Source: Hanstruepera ponticola
GTDB lineage: Bacteria; Bacteroidota; Bacteroidia; Flavobacteriales; Flavobacteriaceae
Assembly (NCBI RefSeq): GCF_012931685.1
Contig: NZ_JABANC010000001.1
Span: forward strand, 1 to 64,000
Length of the DNA stretch: 64,000 nucleotides
Direction: 5' to 3'
Notes under the pieces: generated by a model
Seen by the model: only the letters and a program-made list of their open reading frames with translations
Database searches by the model: none
Told to the model about the DNA's origin: nothing
Shown: piece by piece, positions 42,860-59,948 of the stretch
Layout of the letters: every line of letters begins with the position of its first letter
Numbering within the stretch: position 1 is the stretch's first letter
Program-made: the position numbers and the translations under genes

Positions 42860-42901
42860 GTATCACACAATTTGTTCGAAGATACAGATTAAAGCTAGAA
42901 A

Positions 42902-44980: not shown

Positions 44981-46323
44981 ATCGTTCTTTCCACATCAAA
45001 TTGTTCAAAATAATCAGCAACTCGACGTACAAAACTGCCGCCTAAAAAGCCATCAACAACACGATGGTCAAAAGATAAAGACAAATACATCATACTACGT
45101 ATAGCGATGTCGTCACCATTTTCTGTTTCAATGACTTCTGGCCTTTTCTTTATTATTCCTAACGCTAGAATGGCCACTTCCGGCTGATTTATTATAGGTG
45201 TTCCCATAACACTCCCAAAAGTTCCCACATTTGAAATGGTGAAAGAACTTCCTTGGATATCATCTGCTTTTAAATTGTTTTCTCTTGCTTTCTCGGCTAG
45301 CGCGTTAACATCAGTTGCCAGTGATACTAAATCTTTGGTATCGGCATTTTTTACTACTGGTACAATTAGATTTCCACTAGGAAGTGCGGTAGCCATACCA
45401 ATATTAATATCGTCTTTCACAATAATGTTTTTACCATCAACCGACGCATTAATATTTGGGAAGTCTTTAACAGCTTTAGCGACAGCTTCTACAAATAGAG
45501 GTGTGAATGTTAATCGCTCGCCATACTTCTCTTCAAATGCTTTTTTGTTGGCATTTCGCCATTTTACCATGTTTGTCAAATCGGCTTCAACATATGCCGT
45601 AACATGAGGTGAGGTGTGTTTTGAATACACCATATGATCTGCAATCATTTGGCGCATACGATCCATTTCTATGACTTTACCTTTCCCTTTGTCAAAAGTT
45701 AATTGTGGAATACGGTAAGCCGTTGGATCTTTCGTAACAGGCTGGGCAAACTTAAATGGTCGCCCTTCTTCTATATACTGGAATACATCGCTTTTTCGCA
45801 ATCGCCCTTCTTTACCTGTTGCTGGAATTCTAGCTAATTCTTCAAAACTGATATGGTGTTTTTTTGCAATAGAAACGACTAATGGTGAAAAAAACTGATT
45901 TGAATTTGATACAGAAAATGACTGTGCTTGAGATTCCTCAACTGCGTCTGGAATAATTTGACGCTTCTTTTTAGTTTTTTGTTTTTGTGAGGCCTCAACT
46001 GCGCTCGACGTGACAGCAGATTTATTTGATGCCTTTTTTGAAGTTGACACGTTACCATCAGTTTTAATAATGGCAATGGTCTCTCCTATTTTAATAACAT
46101 CGTTTGCTTTAAAACGTATTTCTTCAACAACACCTGAAACCGTAGATGGCACTTCAGAGTCAACTTTATCTGTAGCCACCTCTAAGAGCATTTCATCTTG
46201 TTCAATGGTATCACCCACGTTCTTAAACCACGTAATAATGGCTGCTTCTGTTATACTTTCACCCAGTTTGGGCATTTTAAATTCATAACTTCCTGCGTAG
46301 GCAGAAATCTGTTTATCTTTCAT
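44977..46323 (-). CDS. 2-oxoacid dehydrogenase E2 (dihydrolipoyl acyltransferase)
   Basis: 448 residues. Lipoyl domain ~13-88 with the lipoyl lysine in EVATDKVDSEV; a long linker ~90-140; peripheral subunit-binding domain ~143-185 (SIAKKHHISFEELARIPATGK in part, GRLRKSDV); catalytic domain ~215-448 with SFDHRVVDG. The linker contains two copies of the palindromic repeat (residues ~102-111 and ~122-131). It forms the complex with E1 downstream; E3 is not in the window. Confidence 0.94.
   Translation of the reverse strand: MKDKQISAYAGSYEFKMPKLGESITEAAIITWFKNVGDTIEQDEMLLEVATDKVDSEVPSTVSGVVEEIRFKANDVIKIGETIAIIKTDGNVSTSKKASNKSAVTSSAVEASQKQKTKKKRQIIPDAVEESQAQSFSVSNSNQFFSPLVVSIAKKHHISFEELARIPATGKEGRLRKSDVFQYIEEGRPFKFAQPVTKDPTAYRIPQLTFDKGKGKVIEMDRMRQMIADHMVYSKHTSPHVTAYVEADLTNMVKWRNANKKAFEEKYGERLTFTPLFVEAVAKAVKDFPNINASVDGKNIIVKDDINIGMATALPSGNLIVPVVKNADTKDLVSLATDVNALAEKARENNLKADDIQGSSFTISNVGTFGSVMGTPIINQPEVAILALGIIKKRPEVIETENGDDIAIRSMMYLSLSFDHRVVDGFLGGSFVRRVADYFEQFDVERTI
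45930..45956. repeat. Degenerate palindromic repeat in the E2 linker
   Basis: GAGATTCCTCAACTGCGTCT then GGAATAA, close to the intergenic copy at 57095-57122 (AGATTCCTCGACTGCGCTCG...). It encodes PDAVEESQ in frame. Confidence 0.65.
45988..46015. repeat. Palindromic repeat in the E2 linker
   Basis: GCCTCAACTGCGCTCGACG followed by TGACA, related to the copies at 47767, 52581 and 53523. It encodes VTSSAVEAS, the same frame and peptide type as the PaaH insertion (VTSSAVERS). Confidence 0.75.
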
Positions 46324-46364
46324 TTCTAAACTTGTTATCGTTTAAACTCGAGTTCTTTTATTTT

Positions 46365-46390
46365 GGATTCCTGCCTTCGCAGGAATGACA
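46365..46390. repeat. Palindromic repeat, CCTGC-CTTC-GCAGG type
   Basis: GGATTCCTGCCTTCGCAGGA followed by ATGACA, in the paaY-E2 gap. The stem is ATTCCTGC/GCAGGAAT. Confidence 0.85.
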
Positions 46391-46394
46391 AATT

Positions 46395-46991
46395 TTATTT
46401 CTTCATAAAATCACGAAGTGTATCGTAAATACCTTCTTGTATTTTCATTTTCGCTGGAACCTCTCTTAATGGTTCTACCTCCTTTAAACTTTCATGGCAA
46501 TCTTTTGGTAATTGTTGATAGAGTTGCGTGCCTTTGGTTTTCCATGCTAACATCTCATCACTAACTTGTTTTAAAACTTTTGCTGGATTACCTACTACTA
46601 AACTCCGATTTGGAATTTTGGTTTCAGCTTTTATAAAAGCCATAGCACCAACTATACTTTCATCACCAATTTCGGCATCATCCATAATAACAGTGTTCAT
46701 GCCTATTAAACAATTTTTACCCAAGTTTGCTCCATGAATAATTGCACCATGACCTACATGAGCACTCTCTTTTAGCGTTATTGATTTACCAGGAAACATA
46801 TGGACTGTGCAATTTTCTTGAACATTAACACCATCTTCTAAAATGATTTGTCCCCAATCACCTCGAATAGCCGCTCCTGGACCTATGTAGCAGTTTTTAC
46901 CAATAATTACATTCCCAGTAACAGCAGCTAAAGGATGTACGAAACTGCTTTCGTGAACCACTGGAGTAAAGCCTTTGAAACTGTAAATCAT
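46395..46991 (-). CDS. paaY: PaaY-type hexapeptide-repeat thioesterase
   Basis: 198 residues, left-handed beta-helix of the gamma carbonic anhydrase-like family (VIIGKNCYIGPGAAIRGDWG, GHGAIIHGANLGKNCLIGMN in part). PaaY hydrolyses dead-end hydroxylated CoA esters of the phenylacetate pathway. Metal histidines occur in HMFPG, HVGHG and HGANL. Its ATG overlaps the last base of the upstream hydratase stop, so it is part of the paa operon. Confidence 0.9.
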   Translation of the reverse strand: MIYSFKGFTPVVHESSFVHPLAAVTGNVIIGKNCYIGPGAAIRGDWGQIILEDGVNVQENCTVHMFPGKSITLKESAHVGHGAIIHGANLGKNCLIGMNTVIMDDAEIGDESIVGAMAFIKAETKIPNRSLVVGNPAKVLKQVSDEMLAWKTKGTQLYQQLPKDCHESLKEVEPLREVPAKMKIQEGIYDTLRDFMKK

Positions 46992-47743
46992 TATTTAAAT
47001 CCTTTTAACTTTTCTTTTGTAAAATCGCTTAACACCAATCTACCACTTGTCTGCGCACGTTCTGCCAATAGTTCATCCCAATGGTCTGTGCCTTTCCAAA
47101 ACACTTTTTTCATCTCCATCATGGCTTCTGTATTATAGGTACATAAATGTTCTGCTGTTGCTTTTACGGCTTCGTCTAACGCTTCTGTACTCTCATAGAC
47201 ATGTGTAAATAAACCTTTTTGTTTAGCCCATTCTGCTGGATAAAACGAATTGGCATCTATAGCAATTTGAGACATGGCACTTAATCCCATTTTACGCTCA
47301 ATGGCTGGTCCGACAACAAATGGTCCAATACCAATATTCAATTCACTTAACTTAATTGCAGCAAATTTAGTTCCCATACAATAATCGGTTGAAGCTGCTA
47401 AACCTACTCCACCACCAACTGTTTTACCCTGAATACGACCAATAATAAATTTGGGACATTTACGCATGGCGTTTATCACATTTGCAAACCCAGAAAAGAA
47501 AACTTTTCCAGTTGCCGCATCATTAATATTTATAAGCTCTTTAAAACTAGCGCCAGCACAGAAGGTTCGGTCTCCTCCACTTTTTAGAACAATAACTTTA
47601 ATAGCATCGTTATGTCCAGCATCAGTAATAGTTTGTGCTAATTTTGCCAACACATCTCCTGGCAATGAGTTATGAGCAGGATGAAAAAATTCAATATAGC
47701 CTACTTCATTTTCTATTTCTAACTTAACATAAGGGTCACTCAT
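46991..47743 (-). CDS. Enoyl-CoA hydratase/isomerase (PaaF-like)
   Basis: 250-residue crotonase-fold enzyme. The oxyanion segments FCAGASFKEL and GKTVGGGVGLAASTDYC are present, with a glutamate in KLSELNIGIGP. By position it should hydrate 2,3-dehydroadipyl-CoA (PaaF step), but the family contains many activities. It lies between paaZ and paaY in the operon. Confidence 0.85.
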   Translation of the reverse strand: MSDPYVKLEIENEVGYIEFFHPAHNSLPGDVLAKLAQTITDAGHNDAIKVIVLKSGGDRTFCAGASFKELININDAATGKVFFSGFANVINAMRKCPKFIIGRIQGKTVGGGVGLAASTDYCMGTKFAAIKLSELNIGIGPFVVGPAIERKMGLSAMSQIAIDANSFYPAEWAKQKGLFTHVYESTEALDEAVKATAEHLCTYNTEAMMEMKKVFWKGTDHWDELLAERAQTSGRLVLSDFTKEKLKGFK

Positions 47744-47766
47744 ATTGTTTTATTTTATCTTTTTGT

Positions 47767-47795
47767 GAGACCTCTCGACTGCGCTCGAGGTGACA
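47767..47795. repeat. Palindromic repeat, CTCGACTGCGCTCGAG type
   Basis: GAGACC-TCTCGACTGCGCTCGAGG-TGACA in the paaZ-hydratase gap. The stem is CCTCTCGA/TCGAGG with a short loop. Confidence 0.85.
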
Positions 47796-47806
47796 TTAGT
47801 TTTAAT

Positions 47807-50344
47807 TTATATTAATCCAAATTGTTCAAAATGGTGATTTAAATGTTTACGTTCTAATAAATACCACTCGTATCTATTTAATTCACCAAAAACCATATTT
47901 TTTAATGTCGTATCAGGATGTTCTTTAAAAAATTCTAGATATTTTTCACGCTGCGACTTAAAATTTTCAATTGCTGCTGCTAAATTTTCATACTTTAAAT
48001 TATCTAGTGTGTCTTTCTCTAATAATGGAAATTGAGAATTTTGAGGAAACTTTTTATAATTATACAATGAATGATGAACTTTCTCTAATATCTTTTCTGG
48101 AGTTGAAATTTCAAAGTCTTGAATCTCTCCAGCAGCAATTTTATATGTATATTCCAAATGTTCAATCATATGTTGTGGTGTCATGATTCCCCATTTTGGT
48201 TTTGTATCCTCATTCAGTTTTAAAAGACATTCATTAATCTTTTCATCTGTCATTTCAACAAAGGTTTCTTGCTTTTTTTGAACCATTGTAAGTATAGTAG
48301 CAACAGCTACTAAAGGACTATCTTTTTCGTTTTTTTGACTTTCAGGTCTATTTTCAAAATTAGCATCAAATACCTCAACATGCCATTTAACAATCCCACT
48401 TGGATGTTCAGCTGAAGCTACATCGCGATCTACTTTCTCCTTACACGTTAAACGCACATAAATTGTGTCATTATGATACAATGGCCTTAAAAAGCGAATA
48501 CTATCTAAACCATAATTTGCCGCTACAGGACCTTTGTTTGGATACACAAATAATCCAGCTGCAGCTGAAATTATGAAATAGCCATGAGCCGTACGTTTTT
48601 CAAATATGCTTCCGTCTAATGACGTAATATCTGTATGCGCATAGAAATGATCCCAAGTTAAATTGGCAAAGTTTTGAATGTCAGTATCTGTAATTGTTCG
48701 CTTATGAGTTTTAAGTGACATTCCTGGTTGAATATCTTCCCAATGGTATTGAAACGGATGTTGTTCAGCATTTTTATATTTTGCATTTTGCTGATAAATG
48801 CCTGTTATTTCAGTAAGTGTTGTTGGTGTTCCTTGAATTGCTGTACGTTGTAAATAGTGTTTTATTCCACGCATACCTCCCATTTCTTCTCCTCCACCTG
48901 CTCGTCCAGGACCACCATGTACTAATGTGGGTAATGGCGAACCATGTCCAGTACTTTCTTTTGCCATTTCACGATTAATAACTAAAATACGTCCGTGATG
49001 ACTAGCCGCATTCACTACATATTCTTTAGCAATATTATCATCATAAGTAGCTATAGAAGACACTAATGAGCCTTTACCCATTTGTGAAAGTTGAACTGCT
49101 TCATCTAACGATTTGTATGGCATAATTGTACTCACCGGACCGAATGCTTCACGTTCGTGAACAATGGTGTTTTCGAGTGGGTTATCTGTTCTAAAAACAA
49201 CAGGACTAATAAAAGCGCCCTTATCAGCATCAGCTCCAATAGTTTCAATCCTGTCTAGGTTTCCATATACAATTTCAGCTTCTTTGGCTATATCGGCTAT
49301 AGAATTTCTTACAGCTTCAACTTGTTGCTTACTCACTAAAGATCCCATTCTAACTTCTTTGAGTCTTGGGTCACCAATAGTTATTTTATCTAAAGCCTTA
49401 CCTAATGCAATTTGAACATCTTCAACTCGGTCTTCAGGCACAATAATTCGCCTAATTGCTGTACATTTCTGCCCAGCCTTAACGGTCATTTCTTTGCGAA
49501 CTTCTTTGATAAATAAATCGAATTCAGGTGTTCCCGGCTTTGCATCTTCTCCTAAAATGGATGCATTCAATGAGTCCGCTTCCATAGTAAAAGGCACAGA
49601 CTCTTGTATTAATCTTGGATGTGCTTTAAGTAATCTTCCAGTGGATGCAGACCCAGTAAAGGTCACCACATCTTGAGATTCTACGGTATCTAAAATAGAT
49701 TTTACTGTCCCATTAATAATTTGCAACGCACCTTCTGGTAAAATTCCGGAATTGATAATTTCTTTAGCAACAGCTTCTGCTAAATACGATGAAGAAGGTG
49801 CTGGTAATACCACAGCCGGAACTCCAGCCATCCAATTAACAGCACATTTTTCAAGCATGCCCCAAACTGGGAAATTAAAGGCATTAATATGAACGGCTAC
49901 ACCTTTTTTAGGCACCATAATATGATGTGCCATAAAACGTCCACCACGTGATAAATCAACAGGATCGCCTTCTACATGATACGGTTGATTTGGAAATAAT
50001 TTCCTTAATGATGCATTGGCGAATAAATTTCCAAAACCACCTTCAATGTCAATCCAACTATCAATTTTTGTAGCTCCAGTTCTATAGCTTAATTCATAGA
50101 ATGCGTCTTTTCGTTTGGTTAAATAGAAAGCAAGCTTCTTAAGCATATTACCACGCTCTTGAAAGGTCATTTTACGGAGGACCTCACCACCTTTGGTTCT
50201 TCCATATTGCAGAATTTCTGGAATATCTAATCCTTCAATTGCGACACTAGTAAATGCTTCACCAGTAACAGCATCAAGGATTGGTGTACCTTCTTCTTTT
50301 CCTGTAGTCCATTGACCTTGGACGTAATGTTGTATTTTGTTCAT
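47807..50344 (-). CDS. paaZ: PaaZ bifunctional oxepin-CoA hydrolase / aldehyde dehydrogenase, with C-terminal DinB-like domain
   Basis: 845 residues. N-terminal aldehyde dehydrogenase (~1-510; catalytic cysteine in [10 protein letters not shown]) oxidises 3-oxo-5,6-dehydrosuberyl-CoA semialdehyde; MaoC-like hydratase domain (~535-680; [24 protein letters not shown]) opens oxepin-CoA. Beyond ~690, where E. coli PaaZ ends, is an extra ~150-residue region ([20 protein letters not shown] ... [14 protein letters not shown]) with spaced histidines like DinB-superfamily metal proteins. I believe other flavobacterial PaaZ proteins carry this extension; its role is unknown. Confidence 0.93.
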
Positions 50345-50361
50345 ATTCTATAAAATAAAAT

Positions 50362-50387
50362 GGATTCCTTCCTTCGCAGGAATTACA
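50362..50387. repeat. Palindromic repeat, CCTGC type, mutated
   Basis: GGATTCCTTCCTTCGCAGGA then ATTACA, between the thiolase and paaZ. One stem mismatch compared with 46365-46390. Confidence 0.75.
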
Positions 50388-50392
50388 TACCT

Positions 50393-51607
50393 CTATAAAT
50401 TCACATTTTCAATAATGGCTGCATAGCCCTGACCAACACCCACACACATCGTTATTAAAGCATAGCGCTTGTTTTGTTCTTGCAATTCTATTGCTGCTGA
50501 TAAAGCAATTCGTGCTCCCGTAACTCCTAATGGGTGTCCTATGGCAATAGAACCACCATTTGGGTTTACTCTTGGATCATCATCAGCTAATCCCCAAGCT
50601 CTTGTGCAAGCCAATGCTTGAGCCGCAAAGGCTTCGTTAAGCTCAATGATATCTATGTCGTCCATGGTAAGACCTGCTTTTGCCATTGCTTTATTTGAAG
50701 CTTCAACGGGCCCAATACCCATGATTCTTGGCTCTACACCAACCACAGCAGAACTTACAATTCTTGCTAATGGTTTTAAGTTATATTTTTTAACGGCATC
50801 TTCTGATGCCACGATAGTTGCTGCTGCACCATCATTTAAACCAGAAGAATTGCCAGCAGTAACACTGCCTCCTTCCTTTTTAAACGCTGGACGAAGTTTA
50901 GCTAAAACTTCTAAAGATGTTGTTGGTTTTACAAACTCATCTTTTGAAAATCGGATGGAGTCATTTTTTCGTTGTGGAATTTCAACGGTTACTATTTCTT
51001 TATCTAAACGTCCATTTTCTTGTGCTTTTGAGGCTTTCATTTGGCTCCAATACGCAAACTTATCTTGATCTTCACGGGAAATATTGTATTTCTCGACCAA
51101 ATTTTCAGCCGTATTACCCATTCCATCGGTTCCATACATATCCTGCATTTTCGGATTGATAAAACGCCATCCGAAGGTTGAATCATACATTTTAGAATCA
51201 CCACCAAAACCTGTTGAAGGCTTAGCAATAACATATGGTCCGCGCGTCATATTTTCAACACCTCCAGAAATAAACAGGTCACCATCTCCAGCCTTAATAG
51301 CACGATTAGCATGAATAATTGCTGACAAACCAGAGCTACACAATCGGTTTACCGTTTCACCAGGAACCGAATACGGTAATCCTGCTAACAATGAACACAT
51401 GCGTGCCACGTTACGATTATCTTCTCCAGCTTGATTTGCACAACCCATTATCACATCATCATAAGCTTCTTTTGGGATATTTGGATTTCGTTTTACAACT
51501 TCTGAAATTACTAAAGCCCCCAAATCGTCTGTACGAACAGCTGATAATGTTCCTTTGTAATTTCCTATTGGTGTTCTTATGCCATCTATTATATATGCTT
51601 CTTTCAT
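50393..51607 (-). CDS. paaJ: 3-oxoadipyl-CoA / acetyl-CoA thiolase
   Basis: 404 residues; thiolase fold. Catalytic cysteine in RLCSSGLSAI, GGVENMTRGPY, the histidine in NPNGGSIAIGHPLGVTGAR and the second cysteine in TMCVGVGQG are all present. In this cluster it cleaves 3-oxoadipyl-CoA to acetyl-CoA and succinyl-CoA, the end of the pathway (established for PaaJ/PcaF). Confidence 0.94.
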   Translation of the reverse strand: MKEAYIIDGIRTPIGNYKGTLSAVRTDDLGALVISEVVKRNPNIPKEAYDDVIMGCANQAGEDNRNVARMCSLLAGLPYSVPGETVNRLCSSGLSAIIHANRAIKAGDGDLFISGGVENMTRGPYVIAKPSTGFGGDSKMYDSTFGWRFINPKMQDMYGTDGMGNTAENLVEKYNISREDQDKFAYWSQMKASKAQENGRLDKEIVTVEIPQRKNDSIRFSKDEFVKPTTSLEVLAKLRPAFKKEGGSVTAGNSSGLNDGAAATIVASEDAVKKYNLKPLARIVSSAVVGVEPRIMGIGPVEASNKAMAKAGLTMDDIDIIELNEAFAAQALACTRAWGLADDDPRVNPNGGSIAIGHPLGVTGARIALSAAIELQEQNKRYALITMCVGVGQGYAAIIENVNL

Positions 51608-51612
51608 AATTA

Positions 51613-51633
51613 ATGCCCACGAAAGTGGGTTTC
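51613..51633. repeat. Small hairpin CCCAC-GAAA-GTGGG
   Basis: A five-pair stem with GAAA loop, flanked by AATG and TTTCT. Read on the minus strand it has the same plan (AGAAA-stem-TTTC-stem-CATT) as the paa-region palindromes. It lies just upstream of the thiolase ATG. Confidence 0.55.
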
Positions 51634-51660
51634 TATAATTGTTACTATTATTATTTTTTA

Positions 51661-51734
51661 GCGTTACCTAAAGGTCGGGCTTTCCTTTATATCTTTTGCA
51701 AAAAGCAAAAGGATGTCACTTAAATCCCTAACGC
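51661..51734. repeat. 74-base element with GCGTTA/TAACGC ends
   Basis: It begins GCGTTACCTAAAGGTCGGGC and ends TAAATCCCTAACGC; the termini pair. The middle has CTTTTGC-AAAAA-GCAAAAG, a seven-pair hairpin. I recall closely similar intergenic elements in many Flavobacteriia, so it is likely a dispersed repeat. It lies in the 200-bp paaI-thiolase gap. Confidence 0.6.
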
Positions 51735-51784
51735 ACTTACTTGCTATGTTTTTTCTTAACCAAAATTTATCATCTATTTGTTAA

Positions 51785-51807
51785 GAGATTCCTGCCTTCG
51801 CAGGAAT
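51785..51807. repeat. Palindromic repeat, CCTGC type
   Basis: GAGATTCCTGCCTTCGCAGG then AAT, ending one base before the paaI stop codon (51809-51811). It could serve as a transcript-stabilising or terminating hairpin. Confidence 0.8.
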
Positions 51808-51808
51808 T

Positions 51809-52213
51809 CTATTCCCAATCCTTTTGAGTTCTATAGACAACACCTTTAAAAAGTGCTACTAATTCATCGCCTCGTTTCACTTCGACGATATTAAACCCTA
51901 ATTTATTGTTTACTTTTTCGATAACTGATTCAGCCACTAGATAATCACCTTCCTCTAATGCTTCAATATGATTAATACTAGTTTCAATAGACACGGCATA
52001 TTTGCCATGCGTATTTGCTGTAAAACCAAATGCTGTATCAGCCAATGAATAACTTATACCACCATGTGCATAATTCATACTGTTAAGCATATCTTTTCGT
52101 ATGGTCATACCAACCTTACAACGCCCAATCTCACATTCTAATATCTCAATACCTAGCCATTGACTAAAAGCATCTTGACTTAACATTTTATATGGAATTA
52201 ATTCTCCTTTCAT
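51809..52213 (-). CDS. paaI: Hydroxyphenylacetyl-CoA thioesterase
   Basis: 134-residue hotdog-fold thioesterase that clears dead-end CoA esters. LGIEILECEIGRCKVGM and MNYAHGGISYSLADTAFGFTAN in part (with HGG and the catalytic aspartate) are typical of PaaI. I place the start at 52213; the open frame continues upstream to 52294 but only through the repeat at 52226-52304, giving a serine/arginine-rich peptide unlike the family. Confidence 0.9.
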   Translation of the reverse strand: MKGELIPYKMLSQDAFSQWLGIEILECEIGRCKVGMTIRKDMLNSMNYAHGGISYSLADTAFGFTANTHGKYAVSIETSINHIEALEEGDYLVAESVIEKVNNKLGFNIVEVKRGDELVALFKGVVYRTQKDWE

Positions 52214-52225
52214 ATTTACTATTTT

Positions 52226-52304
52226 GTCACTTCGAGTGATTTTCGTCAGAAAATTGTATCGAGAAGTCTCGCTTGTTCTCGATAAGCTTCGCACTCGAAC
52301 TGAC
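52226..52304. repeat. ~80-base compound hairpin repeat
   Basis: The outer ends GTCACTTCGAGTG and CACTCGAACTGAC pair with one mismatch. An inner hairpin TATCGAGAA/TTCTCGATA has loop GTCTCGCTTG. It fills the paaH-paaI gap. I recall sequences of this type dispersed in flavobacterial genomes. Confidence 0.7.
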
Positions 52305-52305
52305 G

Positions 52306-53502
52306 CTAGTTAAAAAATGTTTTTTGCTCTCTATTCATTTTACGTAACAGAGGACTACAACGGTAACGATCTTCATGATATTCGTTATACAATTCATCCA
52401 TTTTATTGACGCACCAATCAATTCCTTTTTCATCTGCCCAAGCCAATAAGCCCTTTGGGTAGTTAACGCCTTTGGTCATGGCATTATCAATGTCTTCTGC
52501 CGATGCAATGTTTAAAAACAAAGCATCTGCTGCTTCGTTGATTAGCATGGCTAATACGCGTTCGAATATGCTCTCTGCTAGAGACCTCTCGACTGCGCTC
52601 GAGGTGACATCTAGACTTCCTTTAATCTTTCCGTTTTCATCATAATCATAATAGCCTTTACCGGTTTTACGACCTAAATATCCTGCTTCAGCAAAGCGTT
52701 TCTGTGTAAATGCAGGTTTGTATCTTGGGTCGAAATAAAATTCCTTAAATACAGTTTCTGTAACGGTATAATTGACGTCATTCCCGATAAAATCCATTAA
52801 TTCGAATGGTCCCATACGGAAACCTCCTAGCGTTTTTAAACTCCAATCTATTGTTGCGAAACCCGCTTCGCCGTCGGGCAGGTCTGCAATGCCTTCTTCG
52901 TAAATACGCAAAGCTTCACCATAAAATGGTCTTGCCACACGATTCACTATAAATCCTGGTGTGTCTTTTGCAACTGCCACCACTTTTTTCCAATCCTTAA
53001 TAGTTTGTACAGATTTATCTAATACGTCTTTTGAAGTTTGAATCGCTGGAATAACCTCAACTAACTTCATTAAAGGTGCTGGATTAAAAAAATGAATCCC
53101 AACACAACGTTCTGGTTTCTGTAATGAAGCCGCTATTGATGCTATAGATAAACTAGATGTATTGGATGCAATGATACAATTGTCAGAAACATAAGTTTCT
53201 AATTCTGAAAACACCTTTTTCTTAATATCCAGATTTTCAACAATAGCTTCTATGGTTAAATGAGAATCTGCTAAATCCTTTAAATTATCTACATATGATA
53301 TATTAGACTGAATTCTATTTTTCTCATTTGAATCGATTCGGCCTTTTTCAATAAGTCTATTTAATATTTTTTCAAGGCTTGCTTTAGCTTTATCTAAAGC
53401 CGCTTGGTTGGTATCGTATAATTTTACATTACAACCAGAAGTAGCTGCAACCTGCGCAATGCCGCTTCCCATTGTTCCACTTCCTATTATTCCTATGTTC
53501 AT
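52306..53502 (-). CDS. paaH: 3-hydroxyadipyl-CoA dehydrogenase
   Basis: 398 residues, NAD+-dependent oxidation of 3-hydroxyadipyl-CoA to 3-oxoadipyl-CoA. Rossmann motif GIIGSGTMGSGIAQVAA at residues ~3-19; CVGIHFFNPAPLMKLVEVI; catalytic domain with RPFYGEALRIYEEG and GPFELMDFIGNDVN; then a second C-terminal domain. Two insertions are visible relative to the expected family pattern: LPDGEAG at ~208-214 splitting IADFATIDW, and DVTSSAVERS at ~298-307 between the two C-terminal domains. Both coincide with palindromic repeat DNA. The conserved motifs are intact, so the protein is probably active. Confidence 0.92.
   Translation of the reverse strand: MNIGIIGSGTMGSGIAQVAATSGCNVKLYDTNQAALDKAKASLEKILNRLIEKGRIDSNEKNRIQSNISYVDNLKDLADSHLTIEAIVENLDIKKKVFSELETYVSDNCIIASNTSSLSIASIAASLQKPERCVGIHFFNPAPLMKLVEVIPAIQTSKDVLDKSVQTIKDWKKVVAVAKDTPGFIVNRVARPFYGEALRIYEEGIADLPDGEAGFATIDWSLKTLGGFRMGPFELMDFIGNDVNYTVTETVFKEFYFDPRYKPAFTQKRFAEAGYLGRKTGKGYYDYDENGKIKGSLDVTSSAVERSLAESIFERVLAMLINEAADALFLNIASAEDIDNAMTKGVNYPKGLLAWADEKGIDWCVNKMDELYNEYHEDRYRCSPLLRKMNREQKTFFN
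52581..52609. repeat. Palindromic repeat inside paaH (copy 1)
   Basis: Identical over its length to the intergenic copy at 47767-47795 (GAGACCTCTCGACTGCGCTC then GAGGTGACA). It encodes VTSSAVERS in frame, in the linker between the C-terminal domains. Confidence 0.9.
52861..52881. repeat. Possible repeat insertion inside paaH (copy 2)
   Basis: ACCCGCTTCGCCGTCGGGCA (plus one G) contains CCCG/CGGG arms and is GC-rich against an AT-rich background. It encodes LPDGEAG, seven residues that interrupt IADFATIDW, a sequence normally continuous in the family (from memory). Confidence 0.6.
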
Positions 53503-53522
53503 AATTCTGTTTATCTTTCAAT

Positions 53523-53550
53523 GCGACCTCTCGACTGCGCTCGAGGTGAC
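53523..53550. repeat. Palindromic repeat, CTCGACTGCGCTCGAG type
   Basis: GCGACC-TCTCGACTGCGCTCGAGG-TGAC in the paaG-paaH gap, the same core as at 47767 and 52581. Confidence 0.85.
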
Positions 53551-53559
53551 CACTTTAAA

Positions 53560-54345
53560 TTATTTTCCTTTAAAAGTTGGTTTACGTTTTTCAACAAAGG
53601 CTGCAACACCTTCCCGGTAGTCCTCGCTTTGTGCTGCTTCTATTTGTAATTTAGACTCTAATGCTAATTGCTCTTCTAAACTATTTGTCATAGATTGATT
53701 AAACAATTCTTTAATCATACCTAGTGCTTTAGTTGGCATATTAGCCAATTTTAAAGCAAGTTTACTAACCTCATCTTCAAAGTTTTCTAAAGGAATCATT
53801 TTGTAAATCATTCCTAATCGTTCTGCTTCTTCAGCTGAAATCTTGTCTCCTAACATGGCTAATGCAGTTGCTTTTTGGAATCCAATAAGTCTTGGCAAAA
53901 AGAATGTCCCAGCACTATCTGGAATTAAACCAATTAGGCTAAATGCTTGAATAAAACTTACTTTTTCATGAGCAACAACAATATCGCAAGCCAGTGCAAT
54001 ATTTGCTCCTGCACCAGCTGCTACTCCATTTATTGCACCAATAATTGGTTTTTTGATAGAACGAATTCGAGTGATTATTGGATTGTAATGTTCTTCGAGT
54101 ATTTTTTTAAATCCTGGGTTTAAGTCTGGATTTGTGACTTCTTTTAAATCTTGACCTGCACAAAAGGCTTTTCCGCTTCCAGTAAGGACAATTGCTCTTA
54201 CATCAGTATTGGCTTCACAGTCATCCATAATAGACTGGAGACTTAAAGCCATTTCACGATTGAAACTATTAAATACTTCTGCTCTGTTTAGCGTTATATA
54301 CGCTACTTGGTTTTCAATTTTTAAAAGAATTGAATTGTTGCTCAT
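53560..54345 (-). CDS. paaG: 1,2-epoxyphenylacetyl-CoA isomerase
   Basis: 261-residue crotonase-fold enzyme that turns the ring epoxide into oxepin-CoA. FCAGQDLKEV, GAINGVAAGAGANIALACD and the aspartate in GLIPDSAGTFFLPRLIG (PaaG-type PDSG/A) support PaaG over a generic hydratase. 18 bases separate it from paaD. Confidence 0.92.
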   Translation of the reverse strand: MSNNSILLKIENQVAYITLNRAEVFNSFNREMALSLQSIMDDCEANTDVRAIVLTGSGKAFCAGQDLKEVTNPDLNPGFKKILEEHYNPIITRIRSIKKPIIGAINGVAAGAGANIALACDIVVAHEKVSFIQAFSLIGLIPDSAGTFFLPRLIGFQKATALAMLGDKISAEEAERLGMIYKMIPLENFEDEVSKLALKLANMPTKALGMIKELFNQSMTNSLEEQLALESKLQIEAAQSEDYREGVAAFVEKRKPTFKGK

Positions 54346-54363
54346 ACCTATGTTTCTTGTTGT

Positions 54364-54864
54364 CTATTTAAGACATTTAAAATAGTCGAATGGCTCTTGA
54401 CATTCATCACACTGAAATTGTGCTTTGCATGCTGTTGAACCAAACTGACTTACTAATTTTGTGTTTTTGGATCCACACTGTGGACATTTTACCAATCGTT
54501 TACCATTTAGCAAAACATCTTTATCTGCCTCTGCCTCTAAAGGAGCCGCAATGCCATATTTCTCCAGTGCTTTTCTACCTCGTTCTGTAATCCAATCCGT
54601 TGTCCAAGCGGGATGGAGAATGAGTTCAATTTTAGATTTATAACCTGCATTTTTAAGTGCTGCCATAATATCATCTCCTATCACATCCATGGCTGGGCAG
54701 CCGCTATATGTTGGTGTAATTTCTACTTTTACAATATCATTTTCAATAATTGCAGAACGCACAACACCCATATCCATAATGGATAAAACAGGAATTTCAG
54801 GATCTGAAACCTGCTCTAGAATTGGGATTAAGATTTTATCTATATGTTGTTCCGTTGTTGTCAT
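54364..54864 (-). CDS. paaD: Phenylacetyl-CoA epoxidase subunit PaaD
   Basis: 166 residues. A DUF59/MIP18-like domain (QVSDPEIPVLSIMDMGVVRS, TPTYSGCPAMDVI) is followed by a C-terminal four-cysteine metal site (CPQCGSKNTKLVS, CKAQFQCDECQEPFDYFKC). PaaD is thought to mature the iron-sulfur centre of PaaE. Usual length. Confidence 0.94.
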   Translation of the reverse strand: MTTTEQHIDKILIPILEQVSDPEIPVLSIMDMGVVRSAIIENDIVKVEITPTYSGCPAMDVIGDDIMAALKNAGYKSKIELILHPAWTTDWITERGRKALEKYGIAAPLEAEADKDVLLNGKRLVKCPQCGSKNTKLVSQFGSTACKAQFQCDECQEPFDYFKCLK

Positions 54865-54877
54865 AATTATATTTAAT

Positions 54878-54905
54878 GAGATCCTGAAACAAGTTCAGGA
54901 TGACA
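54878..54905. repeat. Palindromic repeat, ATCCTGAA-CTTCAGGAT type
   Basis: GAG-ATCCTGAAACAAGTTCAGGAT-GACA in the paaC-paaD gap. Arms ATCCTGAA/TTCAGGAT pair perfectly; the boundaries (GAG, TGACA) match the other palindromes while the stem is different. Confidence 0.85.
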
Positions 54906-54918
54906 AATCATAGATTTA

Positions 54919-55671
54919 TCACCATTCCATATTGGGATAGGCACGTTGCATATATTGTAATTCAGCCAACAAATAACCCATATGTTCTGTATGAATACCT
55001 TGTTTACCTCCTTTTTGAAAATATTTTAATTCTGGCACTTGAATTGTTGCCTCTGTTAAAACTTCTGCAACATTATTATAATATGTGTCCTTGAGTTTAG
55101 TAACATCAACTCCTATCCCTTCTGAAACCATCTGTTTATCGGCATCAGTTTGGTGAAATAACTCATCTGTATAAGTCCATAAACCATCAATGGCATCTTG
55201 CATTTTGGCGTGACTTTCTTCAGTACCGTCACCTAATCGTTTCACCCAATCTGAAGAAAAACGCAAATGGTAACTCACTTCCTTTAAGGATTTTGTTGCT
55301 ATAGCTGATAGCGTTAAATCCTTACTCTTTTGTAATTCAGTTAAAAATAGATAATGGTACACGTCAAATAAAAATTGACGTCCGATGATATATGCAAAAT
55401 CTCTATTTGGTTGTTCTACCAATAACACATTTATATAGTCACGCTCTTTGCGCAACATCGCAATATCGTCTTCAGTTCTATCGTCTCCAGCAATTTTTGC
55501 AGCGTATTGATAATAACTACGTACTTGACCAAATAAATCTAAAGATAAATTTGTACATGCAATATCAGTTTCCAAACTTGGCCCATGACCACATAACTCA
55601 CCTATTCTTTGACCAAGGATAAGACTATTGTCCGCTATTCCTAAAATATATTTGTATAAATTATTTTTCAT
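54919..55671 (-). CDS. paaC: Phenylacetyl-CoA epoxidase subunit PaaC
   Basis: 250 residues, ferritin-like helical structural subunit that pairs with PaaA. NNLYKYILGIADNSLILGQR, ELCGHGPSLETDIACTNLSLD in part, and HLRFSSDWVKRLGDGTEESH in part are family landmarks. The start at 55671 excludes ten residues (MKAGISLRET) that are translated repeat DNA. Confidence 0.93.
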   Translation of the reverse strand: MKNNLYKYILGIADNSLILGQRIGELCGHGPSLETDIACTNLSLDLFGQVRSYYQYAAKIAGDDRTEDDIAMLRKERDYINVLLVEQPNRDFAYIIGRQFLFDVYHYLFLTELQKSKDLTLSAIATKSLKEVSYHLRFSSDWVKRLGDGTEESHAKMQDAIDGLWTYTDELFHQTDADKQMVSEGIGVDVTKLKDTYYNNVAEVLTEATIQVPELKYFQKGGKQGIHTEHMGYLLAELQYMQRAYPNMEW

Positions 55672-55684
55672 AGTTTCTCTTAAT

Positions 55685-55735
55685 GAGATTCCTGCCTTCA
55701 TTTCGACAAGCTCAATGTGACACGCAGGAATGACA
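55685..55735. repeat. Nested palindromic repeats
   Basis: An outer copy of the CCTGCCTTCGCAGG type (left 55685-55699, right 55723-55735) is split in its loop by ATTTCGACAAGCTCAATGTG plus ACA (55700-55722), a different repeat ending in the same TGACA. It lies in the paaB-paaC gap. Confidence 0.85.
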
Positions 55736-55739
55736 ATTA

Positions 55740-56027
55740 TTACATGTGTTTTATTTCATCAGGCAAATCATAAAATGTTGGATGACGATACACCTTATCT
55801 TGAGCAGGCTCAAACATTTCACCATTATGTTCTGGATTAGATGCTGTTATGTGTTTAGATTCTACCACCCAAATACTTACACCTTCATTTCTACGCGTAT
55901 AAACATCTCTTGCATTTTCTAGAGCCATTTCTGCATCTGCTGCGTGCAGACTTCCAAAATGCCTATGCTCTAATCCATTTTTACTTCTTACGAAGATTTC
56001 CCAAAGTGGCCAGTTTTTTGTTGACAT
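55740..56027 (-). CDS. paaB: Phenylacetyl-CoA epoxidase subunit PaaB
   Basis: 95 residues (WPLWEIFVRSKNGLEHRHFG, HAADAEMALENARDVYTRRNEG in part, SIWVVES). PaaB bridges PaaAC dimers in the epoxidase complex. The start at 56027 gives the standard length; the upstream extension to 56090 is intergenic sequence. Confidence 0.94.
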   Translation of the reverse strand: MSTKNWPLWEIFVRSKNGLEHRHFGSLHAADAEMALENARDVYTRRNEGVSIWVVESKHITASNPEHNGEMFEPAQDKVYRHPTFYDLPDEIKHM

Positions 56028-56103
56028 AATATTATTTATTGATTCATCATTTATTATTGATTCGAAATTCCTCAAAAGAATTTCTCTCAAATTGATGATA
56101 ATT

Positions 56104-57060
56104 TTAAACTACTTGTTTTGCTTTTCTTTCTCCTTGCTTTTCGGCATAAGCCATAGCCGCATCGCGAACCCATTCGCCACGTTCCCAGGCACCAACTCGT
56201 GCTTTCATACGTTCTTTATTCATTGGACCGTGACCTTTAACTACTTGCCAAAATTCATCCCAATCAATTTCACCAAAATCGTAACAACCGCGTTCTTCAT
56301 TCCATTTTAAATCTGGATCCGGAATGGTTAATCCAAGAATATCTGCTTGAGGCACAGTTTGATCTATAAACTGTTGACGTAAGTCGTCATTTGATTTTCG
56401 CTTTAATTTCCATTTCATGGATTGCTCTGTATGTATAGATTCTGCATCTGTTGGCCCTAACATCATTAAACTTGGCCACCACCAACGATTCAATGCATCT
56501 TGCGCCATCTCTTTTTGTTCTGGTGTTCCATTACACAATTTGAGCATGATTTCATAACCTTGTCTCTGGTGAAAACTTTCTTCTTTACAAACGCGAATCA
56601 TGGCTCGTGCATAAGGTCCGAAAGACGTGTTACACAATGGCACTTGATTGATGATAGCTGCACCATCTACCAACCATCCAATAGCTCCCATATCTGCCCA
56701 AGTAAGTGCAGGATAATTAAAAATGGACGAATATTTGGCTTTTCCTGTATGTAATTGCTCATACATTTCATCACGTGAAATACCTAAAGTCTCGGTTGCG
56801 GAATATAAGTATAGTCCATGACCTGCTTCGTCCTGAACTTTGGCTAACAATGCAACTTTACGCCTTAATGACGGTGCTCTAGTAATCCAATTTCCTTCAG
56901 GCAACATGCCAACAATTTCGGAGTGTGCATGTTGAGACATCTGACGAATATGTGTTTGACGATACTTTTCTGGCATCCAATCTTTTGGTTCAATTTTTTC
57001 GTCGCGCGCTATTCGCGCTTCAAATTGCTCTTCTAGGTTTTTTATTTGTTCTTCACTCAT
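56104..57060 (-). CDS. paaA: Phenylacetyl-CoA epoxidase catalytic subunit PaaA
   Basis: 318 residues, di-iron monooxygenase that epoxidises the aromatic ring of phenylacetyl-CoA. Iron-ligand helices are visible: [16 protein letters not shown] (E and H) and [14 protein letters not shown] (E and H), with [19 protein letters not shown]. The usual length and first in line after paaE. Confidence 0.96.
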
Positions 57061-57094
57061 AATTTAGTATTTAGTGAATAATTCTATTTATAAT

Positions 57095-57122
57095 AGATTC
57101 CTCGACTGCGCTCGGAATGACA
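57095..57122. repeat. Palindromic repeat, hybrid type
   Basis: AGATTCC-TCGACTGCGCTCG-GAATGACA in the paaE-paaA gap. The outer arms ATTCC/GGAAT match the CCTGC type and the inner core matches the CTCGACTGCGCTCGAG type. Confidence 0.85.
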
Positions 57123-57129
57123 TATCTTT

Positions 57130-58203
57130 TTAAACATCAAAATCCACAACAACTTTTTCTGTTGTTGGTACGGCCTGACAGCTTAATACATAGTTTTGTG
57201 CGACTTCTTTATCTTCTAATGCGTAATTAATCTTCATTTCGACTTTACCTTCTTTTATCTGACACTTGCAGGTACTACAAACACCACCTTTACATGCAAA
57301 CGGCAAATCGGCACCAGCACCTAAAGCGGCATCTAAAATATTATCGTATTCTTTGGTCATGGTGAATTGGAATTCTTTCCCACCATCAACAATAGTGACT
57401 TGTGTGCCTTCTACTTTTTGCTGTGCCAATCGTTCAGCTCGTTTAATATCTTCTTCTGAAAGACCGGTAACAAACAATTCAAAATGCACCAACTCTTTTG
57501 GCAAACCTTTATTTATCAAATATTGGCTTACATACTTAACCATTTGTTCTGGTCCGCACAGAAACACTTCACTCGTATCTGGAATATCAATAAATATTTC
57601 TGTAAGCACCTTCATTTTCTCATCATCAAATCGGCCATTAAACAAGTCTATATCACGTCTTTCTTTGGTTAAAAAATAATAGATTTCTAGTCTTCCAAAA
57701 TACGTGTTTCTCAACTGTTCCAAGTCTTCTTTAAAGATAATGGATTTTGCCGTTTTATTCACATAAAACAATTTACAAGTTGAGTTTGGCTCTTCAGCCA
57801 AATGCGTTTTTATCATAGACAGTATAGGCGTTATACCACTACCTGCTGCAAAAAACAAATAATTCTTGTTTTTTTCTTTATTACAATTAACTCCAAATGT
57901 TCCGCTAGGTGTCATTACTTCTAGTGTATCTCCTGCTTTCAATTCTTCATTAACATAAGTTGAAAATTTTCCTCCCGGAATGAGTTTTACAGCTACTTTC
58001 CATTGGTTCTCCAAAGGGCTTGAACATAATGAATAGGAACGTCGTACGTCTTCATCGTTAATAATAGCTTTTAAAGTCAAATGCTGACCTTGTCTAAATT
58101 TAAAAGCATCTTGAGATGATTCAGGAATCTCAAAAGTGATAACCGATGTATCTTCGGTTTCTTTATAAATATCTGCAACTTTTAAGTTGTGAAATTCTGC
58201 CAT
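57130..58203 (-). CDS. paaE: Phenylacetyl-CoA epoxidase reductase PaaE
   Basis: 357 residues. FAD-binding domain (~1-105; RRSYSLCSSP), NAD(P)H-binding domain (~110-235; FFAAGSGITPILSMI), C-terminal plant-type [2Fe-2S] domain (~265-357) with CKGGVCSTCKC and a fourth cysteine in VLSCQAVP. It passes electrons from NADPH to PaaA. As first gene of the operon it follows the operator at 58219-58244. Confidence 0.96.
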   Translation of the reverse strand: MAEFHNLKVADIYKETEDTSVITFEIPESSQDAFKFRQGQHLTLKAIINDEDVRRSYSLCSSPLENQWKVAVKLIPGGKFSTYVNEELKAGDTLEVMTPSGTFGVNCNKEKNKNYLFFAAGSGITPILSMIKTHLAEEPNSTCKLFYVNKTAKSIIFKEDLEQLRNTYFGRLEIYYFLTKERRDIDLFNGRFDDEKMKVLTEIFIDIPDTSEVFLCGPEQMVKYVSQYLINKGLPKELVHFELFVTGLSEEDIKRAERLAQQKVEGTQVTIVDGGKEFQFTMTKEYDNILDAALGAGADLPFACKGGVCSTCKCQIKEGKVEMKINYALEDKEVAQNYVLSCQAVPTTEKVVVDFDV

Positions 58204-58218
58204 ATTATTCTTTTGAAC

Positions 58219-58244
58219 ATCTAACTAACACTTGTTAGTTAGAT
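58219..58244. promoter_or_regulatory. Likely TetR operator of the paa operon
   Basis: A perfect inverted repeat with 11-base arms ATCTAACTAAC / GTTAGTTAGAT and a 4-base centre ACTT. It lies between the TetR gene and paaE, overlapping the predicted start site set by the box at 58248-58255, so a bound repressor would block transcription. Confidence 0.7.
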
Positions 58245-58247
58245 TTA

Positions 58248-58255
58248 CAAATTTA
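58248..58255 (-). promoter_or_regulatory. -7 promoter box of the paa operon
   Basis: The minus strand reads TAAATTTG (TANNTTTG). The start would fall at about 58242, inside the palindrome, with a leader of ~40 bases to the paaE ATG. No clear -33 box. Confidence 0.55.
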
Positions 58256-58272
58256 CAAAAAAATTCTATTAA

Positions 58273-58842
58273 CTATTTGTTAATTCCACTAATTAGGATT
58301 GTACTCAAATTTTTTGATAACTCCTCAAAATTTAAATCTTCTTTTTTAGGTATCCAGAGATATAAAGAGCGTAATGTAGATAATAGCGAAAACAACATAG
58401 TTTCTATATCCGAATCAATAATTTCATTTTTACTAACACCATCAATTAAAATGTTTCTAAAGTCATTTTCATAGTTAGTTCGTAATTCTAGATAATACTG
58501 CAATTGGCCCTCAAGATGCATCCAATCATTATTCAATGATGCCATACCATAAGTATTCTTGCTGGTAATGTTGATATGCAATGCAATGATGTCCTTTAAC
58601 TTTTGAATTGAAGATTGGTTAGAATTATTGATTTGCTCCATACCATTAGTAAATTCTTCAGCCAACGAAATGATTATTTCTTTTAATATCTCTTGTTTAG
58701 AACTTATGTGGTTATAAAGACTTGCAGCTTTCATACCCATGGTAGTTGCCAAATCGCGCATGGTCACAGCACTAAATCCTTTTTCTTTAAATAATTGTGC
58801 AGCTGTTTGAATTATCTCCTCTCGTCGTGTTTCAGATTTCAA
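58273..58842 (-). CDS. TetR/AcrR family regulator of the paa cluster
   Basis: 189 residues. N-terminal helix-turn-helix (EEIIQTAAQLFKEKGFSAVT, MRDLATTMGMKAASLYNHI) and an all-helical ligand domain. Position before paaE and the palindrome in the gap suggest it represses the paa operon and releases on phenylacetyl-CoA, as PaaR-type TetR proteins do elsewhere (inference). Confidence 0.9.
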   Translation of the reverse strand: MKSETRREEIIQTAAQLFKEKGFSAVTMRDLATTMGMKAASLYNHISSKQEILKEIIISLAEEFTNGMEQINNSNQSSIQKLKDIIALHINITSKNTYGMASLNNDWMHLEGQLQYYLELRTNYENDFRNILIDGVSKNEIIDSDIETMLFSLLSTLRSLYLWIPKKEDLNFEELSKNLSTILISGINK

Positions 58843-58885
58843 TTGTAGATTTTAATTATTTATTTGTAAATTTAAATAAAATGAA

Positions 58886-59197
58886 ATGACTATGGGATTC
58901 TTAGATTTTTTATTTGGAGCAAAGAAAAGGCAGATTCAATATTTTTTAGAAAATGGGGCTGTAATTCTAGATGTTAGAACAAAAAAGGAATGGGATAATG
59001 GTCATATTGAAAATGCTGTACATATTCCTTTAAACGAATTACAAAATCATGTTGAAGAACTAAAAGCAATGAATAAACCTTTTGTAGTATGTTGTGAAAG
59101 TGGTGTACGGTCGGCTAAAGCTGCGAAATTCTTGAATCTAAAACGTATAGAAGCTACTAATGGAGGTGGCTGGGTAAGTTTGAGAAAGAGATTATAA
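58886..59197 (+). CDS. Rhodanese-like sulfurtransferase
   Basis: 103 residues, single rhodanese domain: VILDVRTKKEWDNGHIENAVHIPL and the active loop CCESGVRSAKA with the catalytic cysteine (second of the CC pair). The N-terminus (MGFLDFLFGAKK) is a short amphipathic helix. Initiation at the second methionine (58892) is equally possible. Divergent from the TetR gene; its end overlaps the convergent DUF4230 gene by six bases. Confidence 0.9.
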   Translation: MTMGFLDFLFGAKKRQIQYFLENGAVILDVRTKKEWDNGHIENAVHIPLNELQNHVEELKAMNKPFVVCCESGVRSAKAAKFLNLKRIEATNGGGWVSLRKRL

Positions 59198-59806
59198 TTT
59201 TAATCCCGTAAGTTCATTTATATTATCAATAGGTTTTTCATTATACTTTAAAGTCCATCCCATTGAATTTGTTAAAATATGAAATTTTGCCAATTCGCTA
59301 ATCAATCTGTTTTTGGCATTTAATTTTATATCTGAAGCCTCTACCTTTTGCATGAGTGATTTCTTTACAGTCTCTTTAATATTGTTGTAGTCTTTGGCTT
59401 CAAAAGGGTTTAAATAATCCGCTTGAACATCATAATATTCAAAATCAGGATTTATTTTTATTTCTTCCTTTGGCACACCAGTAATATGAAGCGTTTTGTT
59501 TTTTTCATCAATACTGTAAGTTATTTTACTTAAATCATATGCTATAGTCACATCGGCATTGACCACAACTAGAGCTTTTTTTTCAACGTTGACTAAATCG
59601 GCAAAAATGGCTTTTGAATTTTTATAAGTAAACACTTCACTAAAATGACCTTCAGTTACCACTAACTTACCAACGTTTTTAATTTGTTCCTGTATTAATG
59701 TGGAATTTTCCTTTAGCAGAGTTTCTTCTTTTTGTTTATCGCCACAATACTTGAATGACAACAAAACCACCAACGTAATTATTACACCAAATAAAATTTT
59801 TCGCAT
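59192..59806 (-). CDS. DUF4230 membrane-anchored protein
   Basis: 204 residues. N-terminal TM anchor (ILFGVIITLVVLLSFKYCG) then an extracytoplasmic DUF4230 domain (GKLVVTEGHFSEVFTYK, ALVVVNADVTIAYDLSKI, GVPKEEIKINPDFEYYD). Function unknown. The start at 59806 is supported by the terminator immediately upstream (59822-59870), which the longer frame would have to read through. Confidence 0.87.
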   Translation of the reverse strand: MRKILFGVIITLVVLLSFKYCGDKQKEETLLKENSTLIQEQIKNVGKLVVTEGHFSEVFTYKNSKAIFADLVNVEKKALVVVNADVTIAYDLSKITYSIDEKNKTLHITGVPKEEIKINPDFEYYDVQADYLNPFEAKDYNNIKETVKKSLMQKVEASDIKLNAKNRLISELAKFHILTNSMGWTLKYNEKPIDNINELTGLKL

Positions 59807-59821
59807 ATTACTAAAATACAT

Positions 59822-59870
59822 AAAAAAACAAAGCACTGATATCTTCGACAATGAAGTCTTATCAATGCTT
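59822..59870 (-). terminator. Terminator after the response regulator
   Basis: An 11-pair stem with one wobble (59831-59841 with 59860-59870) and an inner CTTC/GAAG pairing, followed on the minus strand by a T-rich run (59822-59830). Confidence 0.7.
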
Positions 59871-59948
59871 GCGTTCTTCCTTGATTAATAGCAATTCAAA
59901 AATACGTTAATAGAAAAAATCAAATGTTCTCTATCGATTAAATTATTG

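Follow-up and report, generated by a model that had tools for sequence, protein, structure and literature searches.

The window analysed here, the first 64,000 nt of a contig of the Hanstruepera ponticola genome (3.18 Mb, 14 contigs), carries on its reverse strand an open and intact reading frame of 398 aa for a paaH-like 3-hydroxyacyl-CoA dehydrogenase (52306-53502). Pfam assigned 3HCDH_N and two 3HCDH stretches to the product, the NCBIfam models NF006124 and TIGR02279 (PaaH) were its two best matches, both under the cut-off, and 3mog was the nearest solved structure. Two inserts lie within this gene, both read on its strand. Site B (52581-52610, reverse strand), in the linker that joins the C-terminal domains, is a hairpin repeat about 30 nt long with a TGTCA tag. 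A preliminary description of this DNA had placed VTSSAVERS in frame here; the translation (SLD-VTSSAVERS-LAES) bears this out, and the stretch read across the site includes SLDVTSSAVERSLAE. Site A (52862-52882, reverse strand) is by alignment a 21-bp GC-rich insertion that adds LPDGEAG (encoded by 52861-52881). The AlphaFold model of PaaH was middling (pLDDT 71, pTM 0.57) and was used solely to place the two inserts: site A falls in a predicted loop that joins helix 182-202 to helix 214-226, and site B in a linker modelled with low confidence. The same description had found the enzyme motifs intact, and the reading frame is intact as well.

Further copies of the site B repeat are spread over the window, all on the reverse strand. 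The match reported earlier between 52581-52609 and the intergenic stretch 47767-47795 is letter for letter and extends by one base, to 52610 and 47796. The exact 26-mer occurs at 47769-47794, 52583-52608 and 53525-53550, with two further exact copies outside the window, and the 25-nt core had four matches in the window at ≤3 mismatches versus 0.00 in 100 window shuffles. Besides the identical intergenic copy (47767-47796), there is one directly upstream of paaH (53523-53552) and a divergent intergenic copy with a TCGACTGCGCTCGGAATGAC core (57100-57123). In-frame copies lie in the linker of an E2 acyltransferase (45993-46016, with VTSSAVEAS at 45995-46014) and in a fused E1 dehydrogenase (44522-44545, with MSSRAQSR at 44524-44543). 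The SSAVE peptide thus recurs in E2 in the orientation and frame of PaaH, as had been noted; the E1 copy, the third intragenic one in the window, differs in frame from the other two.

A genome-wide search with the repeat returned 12 matches, and a degenerate core returned 29 at ≤3 mismatches and 25 at ≤2; the reversed controls gave none. The four copies dropped were all 3-mismatch matches (L040, two in L041 and one in L027). The L040 match (RGRERSRD) is probably an ordinary MiaB protein motif, matched by chance, which is how weak matches can mislead. Read on the strand of PaaH, the unit is TGTCA followed by 20 nt and TCTCT. The TGTC tag was present in 23/25 copies (12/13 genic and 11/12 others). 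The right end is soft, with TC after the stem in 15/25 (11 of them among the 13 genic copies) and TCTC in 6/25 (5 genic), so a unit length of about 30 nt holds for part of the copies only. The stem has 3 + 4 bp and a 2-nt bulge, and closes a loop of 6 nt. Its outermost pair is A-T in 17/25 copies, and its second pair is C-G, G-C or U-A in 23/25.

The hairpin shows covariation. Two stem pairs vary on both sides (C-G, G-C, U-A in one; C-G, G-C, U-A, A-U in the other). Across the 25 copies, 92.6% of cells were paired versus 79.2% in shuffles, and there were 22 two-sided changes versus 5.8; 0/500 shuffles reached either value. The covariation score was 0.373 versus at most 0.122 for slid versions. 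Two of the five covariation measures were no better than shuffled or slid versions, namely the number of pairs with two-sided changes (2 vs 2.2) and further pair types (7 vs 7.4). Rfam matched nothing in window positions 42000-60000. The core is widespread, with matches at ≤2 mismatches in 120 of the 199 family genomes sampled and only isolated control matches, and the five genus genomes hold 25 (own), 30, 10, 20 and 34 copies.

Of the 25 copies, 13 stand within long ORFs and keep the reading frame. Their hosts are E1, E2, PaaH, RecJ, PyrD, IcmF, ValS, a Vps10/sortilin-like protein, CusA/CzcA, a KMO-like FAD enzyme, PurL, a SucB-like E2 and RNase R. For 12 of the 13 the name was backed by Pfam or NCBIfam, and RecJ, ValS, PurL and RNase R passed a curated NCBIfam cut-off; KMO is a putative label, Pfam giving an FAD-binding domain. 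Of the 12 copies classed as non-genic, four (53531, L025 1529, L027 1556, L029 1561) overlap ORFs of at most 129 codons that we judged spurious. Nine of the genic copies are read as VTSSAVE, three as MSPRAESR and one, in the KMO-like gene, from the opposite strand. Under five equally open frames, finding nine of the 13 copies in a single frame has P = 1.7e-4, a rough figure since four of the six frames of the 30-mer are free of stops.

We compared these sites with orthologues in the four congeners (G001 to G004; three species aligned for E2, Vps10-like and CusA). PaaH in all four lacks both the site B repeat and LPDGEAG by alignment, and its linker is 26 aa in our genome versus 20 aa in the congeners. 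Each of the 12 other hosts has at least one congener without the repeat at the site or with another one. PyrD, ValS, the Vps10-like and the KMO-like sites are filled in our genome only, G001 possibly holding a decayed copy in the last. The repeat is shared by two of four congeners in RecJ, by three of four in IcmF and RNase R, and by G001 in E2, and the SucB-like copy is shared with some congeners in more or less decayed form. At the E1 site, another family (VIQNTSEE, VVQNDSKES) occupies G002 and G004, this family and the other stand in tandem in G001, and none is evident in G003. All three congeners aligned have other repeat-like readings at the CusA site. The PurL site is empty in three congeners, and in G004 the same outer repeat has a second repeat nested in its loop. 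Past residue 477 of the IcmF-like protein (L028), we observed a second repeat-like peptide of another family (EILNQVQDD); G001, G002 and G004 have related residues at its place, and G003 is without both peptides.

The congeners in turn hold copies that our genome lacks, in genes that are putatively HemW-, MvaD-, 2-hydroxyacid dehydrogenase- and LeuS-like. One loop of the MvaD-like gene has three repeat readings across four species and none in ours. The LeuS-like gene has two tandem repeats in G001 and G003, another in G002, yet another in G004 and none in ours. In an A2M-like protein, VTSSAVETS of G003 stands exactly at the place of VVQNDSEAS (G001, G002), VVQNDIEES (G004) and VIQNYREAS (own), an in-place exchange of nine codons at unchanged length. 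Another place in the A2M-like protein, site 1 (L231/L270), was left out of the insertions, the lengths being similar in 4/5 species. The sequences of a glycosyltransferase-like protein (L241, L257, L238, L250) were so scrambled that no call as a repeat site was made. Between genes, the copy at 47767-47796 is near-identical in G001, absent from G003 and replaced by another repeat in G002, the three species aligned; the region of the G004 paa cluster (L230) matching window 47744-47806 is longer by about 1.5 kb, between the same pair of genes. The G001 counterpart of the 53523-53552 copy carries about 45 nt within the hairpin loop.

Where a site could be measured, the net gain was 18 nt at 5/11, namely PaaH, ValS, PyrD, the Vps10-like gene and the KMO-like gene (the latter against three of four congeners). 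IcmF also gained 18 nt, from alignment only. Other net gains were 15 nt in RecJ, 12 in E2, 36 in PurL, 39 in RNase R and about 6 in the SucB-like gene. Gains other than 30 nt imply that target bases were often lost or trimmed. A property of the reaction and selection on loop length are inseparable here as sources of the recurring 18 nt. In a PrmC-like gene, repeat-bearing and other versions are equally long, which makes its net gain unreadable.

To follow the PaaH linker across the family, we compared 81 genes, our own and the best 80 of at least 424 confirmed relatives. By text pattern, 16 of these 81 linkers belong to the family of site B, 15 are of the SDSEES/SNDSEKS type and five of the HxELxxxS type; 36/81 therefore fit one of three repeat types. 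A further 33/81 are 18-20 aa long with no recognised repeat, and the remaining 12 are long and unlabelled, several being visibly decayed members. By eye only, an 8-bp stem and a 5-nt loop can be made out in the HSELDSES-type element of the L089 and L095 PaaH genes. A label-free test compared linker 22-mers (≤2 mismatches) with 494 kb of DNA flanking the genes, which were themselves excised. Within the same own-plus-best-80 set, linkers longer than 22 aa had flank matches in 27/46 (≥3 matches in 20), versus 3/35 of the shorter ones (≥3 in none; two of the 35 are SDSE-labelled) and 17/405 random control stretches of the same genes (≥3 in one).

In a DNA tree of the PaaH genes, built with linker and site A removed and with a bootstrap that had not settled, sister rows had unlike linkers (L060/L081, L095/L096, L085/L092, L063/L121), as did L057 against L059 and L074, and L089 against the Hanstruepera rows. 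The protein tree was weakly supported and poorly resolved, and its 38 and 23 changes are likely overcounts. An xY-xx-NG start was found in 37/46 long linkers and 0/35 short ones of the own-plus-best-80 set. Such a shared start is what a few old insertions followed by swaps would leave, and repeated insertion could thus be mimicked by alleles passing between species. To judge from these comparisons, the PaaH linker appears to be a revolving-door site for repeats. The preliminary description had called site B a recent insertion. A repeat-derived peptide in PaaH that is absent from 4/4 congeners is supported, but recent insertion is too simple an account, since other genera hold repeat-encoded linkers of the same and other families there and the linker has been hit or exchanged repeatedly. 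Exact identity with the intergenic copy would fit either recent arrival or homogenisation.

Site A had also been described as probably repeat-derived, splitting an expected IAD/FATID. The split is evident from the congeners, in which the stretch is uninterrupted (IADFATID in three, LADFETID in one), and 3mog, 6aa8 and 4kug have a gap at this position. Two of the 81 PaaH genes (own plus best 80 of at least 424) contain the peptide, ours and that of Winogradskyella ouciana (L044, LPDGQAG), and 79 are without; the two inserts share 18/21 bases. Exact and degenerate searches of our genome (≤3 mismatches) found no second copy of the 21-bp block and returned only site A itself, and the candidate was rejected as a repeat of this genome. 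The 494-kb flank pool likewise gave 0 matches. The W. ouciana insert is palindromic (9/10 pairs, reached by 0.28% of shuffles), and our insert pairs at 6/10 positions (15% of shuffles), which is not significant. Apart from copies in our own DNA, a scan of 231 sequences at ≤5 mismatches matched just L044 and L147, the latter being a PF01797 locus from family genome G161. The L147 match (1081-1101) has 18/21 bases of the W. ouciana insert and a similar GGGTTT edge, and with 3 mismatches allowed 0/200 shuffled queries matched anywhere in the DNA scanned. It lies within a short-chain-dehydrogenase-like frame of 307 codons on the opposite strand, a gene that could possibly be a second protein host of the element. 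A relation to repeats elsewhere in the genome, which the description had named as its test, was not found; a hairpin origin is nevertheless likely, because the W. ouciana palindrome and the L147 match go beyond chance. We regard site A as probably an independent insertion of hairpin type and of another class than site B.

For site B, the evidence argues strongly for a non-autonomous mobile element, a TGTC-tagged REP-like palindrome of about 30 nt that very probably entered the paaH frame and would be carried as a tolerated passenger by a still active enzyme. This reading draws on exact family copies, covariation, presence and absence within the genus, several families per loop, nested and tandem arrangements, and in-frame reading. 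Chance or a composition artefact is a negligible alternative. The L040 match at 3 mismatches, which looks like a plain protein motif, is a reminder of it, but for site B it is refuted by a 29-nt identity, 0 expected matches in shuffles, an empty reversed control and covariation. Nor is the peptide likely to be a selected, functional part of PaaH whose likeness to intergenic repeats is secondary. Its SAVE-type form does occur in 16 of the 81 genes (by text pattern, own plus best 80 of at least 424) and in several genera; yet 33 of the same 81 have a short linker with no recognised repeat, other genes hold SDSEES, SNDSEKS, HSELDSES or HPELVEGS, and sister species differ. Linker DNA also matches flanking repeats, and 12 more protein genes of our genome carry the site B repeat, making a functional linker highly improbable.

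The most serious of the alternatives, though still unlikely, is that a repeat-bearing paaH segment came by horizontal transfer or recombination from another genus instead of being filled by insertion in this lineage. PaaH is 89% identical to that of W. ouciana versus 83-85% to the congeners, the mean of the neighbouring genes is not in favour of W. ouciana (87.3 vs 84.6-90.6), and LPDG[EQ]AG is common to the two. Against this, sliding identity revealed no block in which W. ouciana was consistently best, one PaaH clade of our genome and the four congeners was not rejected (p-AU 0.48), the site B DNA equals our own intergenic copies and not the W. ouciana variant, and the identity excess stems partly from the shared insertion itself. 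As for how the repeats move, a system in which REPs depend on a Y1 (REP-associated tyrosine) transposase, a RAYT, would suit a hairpin with an unpaired tetranucleotide tag, which is the REP layout, and PF01797 (IS200-type included) occurs in 72/199 sampled family genomes. However, PF01797 is found in 0/5 genus genomes despite 10 to 34 copies in each, and 5/7 sampled genomes with at least 50 copies have no match to it. Twenty loci in other genera had mostly weak PF01797 matches, and 12 of these loci held ORFs (15 in all) that passed a motif filter. The hairpins listed beside those ORFs were of other classes, often TACCRCACGA...TCGTGTGGTA, by a finder blind to bulged stems, and a direct scan of the 20 loci (55 kb, ≤3 mismatches) gave 0 copies of the repeat. 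We rejected a RAYT-driven system as very unlikely after this search of our own genome, the genus, the family sample and the 20 loci. At one PF01797 locus (L158), a RAYT-like gene lies between long palindromes, ACACCTCACAGGTTTT..AAAACCTGTGAGGTGT, unlike the hairpins of the other loci. Two genomes of the family sample, G135 and G183, hold 147 and 131 copies of the same core without a PF01797 match.

If site B is a mobile palindrome, as we favour, copies would reach many sites, and the survivors would be those that sit in a surface loop or a linker between domains and leave the frame unbroken, helped by the four of six repeat frames without a stop. VTSSAVERS would then be a passenger on a still active PaaH. 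Copy number, identity and interspecies presence and absence lead us to infer that the non-autonomous hairpin is mobile in trans. A loop that holds one element may tend to gain others, by insertion into or beside the resident hairpin or, alternatively, by a swap of elements whose ends are alike. The nested insertions in PurL (G004) and at the 53525 copy (G001) break the hairpin loop, which points to extruded hairpins as the target, with only two cases. No target-site duplication was evident in the site alignments, viewed by inspection. Our guess, tentative and at somewhat less than even chance, is that the mover could be a hairpin-recognising nuclease, or that template switching occurs at extruded hairpins. 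A bolder and rather doubtful proposal is that loops of Flavobacteriaceae proteins might serve as docking ports, in which families swap in place with the frame kept, via the TGTC end or loop of the resident hairpin and free of RAYTs. Were it true, the six-codon gain at unrelated loops would be a property of the reaction and not just of selection.

The nearest relatives described to date appear to be the CGTC/TGTC REPs and the repeat elements (RPEs) of Rickettsia. According to Di Nocera et al. (2013, PMC3733652), CGTC-tagged REPs are short palindromes with an unpaired CGTC tag, TGTC in many, that occur in Bacteroidetes (G. forsetii is named), form inverted pairs, include units inside genes and have no linked transposase. 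The same text describes different REPs at roughly one site of recB in two Xanthomonas species and states as an open question how REPs move without a linked transposase. Our repeat shares the TGTC tag, the genic units and the lack of a linked Y1 transposase (Y1 alone tested). It differs in having a bulged 7-bp stem and a 6-nt loop where the stem of CGTC REPs is 8-9 bp and the loop 4-5 nt, and in a second pair that is not AT and a tail that is not CCA where theirs have A-T first and second pairs and a CCA tail (PMC3733652). As the strict stem, loop and tail features are lacking, we call it a variant that would work like CGTC REPs. In-place family exchange across several enzymes of one genus does not figure in the consulted part of that account (PMC3733652).

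For enzymes decorated in frame, the nearest counterpart is the RPEs, palindromic repeats in frame within unrelated protein genes (PMC10969869, PMC3733652). They are about 150 bp long and belong to obligately intracellular Rickettsia (PMC10969869), whereas the repeats here are about 30 nt, belong to Flavobacteriaceae and alternate as several families per site. RPE-4 and RPE-6 have been equated with short CGTC repeats (PMC3733652), which brings part of the RPEs close to ours. GT[AG]G REPs with RAYTs are likewise tagged hairpin repeats, with in-frame insertions reported inside subclass 2.4 tnpA genes (PMC6006769), but the tag here is TGTC and no Y1 transposase was found in the five genus genomes. 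MITEs (PMC10969869) share small size, non-autonomy and possible in-frame fusion; neither long terminal inverted repeats nor target duplication was evident in our alignments. In the portion of the open-access literature covered, with subscription journals outside it, neither such elements in Flavobacteriaceae proteins nor in-place family exchange was found.

Proteins act here as landing sites for mobile DNA, and from one related species to the next a given enzyme loop may carry an unlike repeat or no repeat at all. One genus with five species offers presence and absence, empty sites, swaps and nested copies in core genes, and searches of it turned up no Y1 transposase. The reaction can therefore be sought in free-living bacteria with named strains. 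The same sites amount to a natural experiment that reveals where protein loops put up with insertions. Caution is also due, as what looks like conserved protein in the linkers of PaaH, ValS, RNase R, PurL and others in the family can instead be mobile DNA.

Two further intervals of the window contain inverted repeats. Between paaH and a thioesterase-like gene (52225-52320) there is a long composite inverted repeat (GTCACTTCGAGTGATTTTCG...CGAACTGAC) that is absent from G004, similar in G003 and replaced by another composite in G001 and G002. At 50345-50392, one intergenic place holds different hairpins in our genome, G002 and G003 (TTCCTTCC..GGAATTACA, TTCCGCATCAAGTGCGGAATGACA, TCCACATCAAACGTGGAATGACA), differences that, going by the alignments, would represent repeat turnover between genes too.
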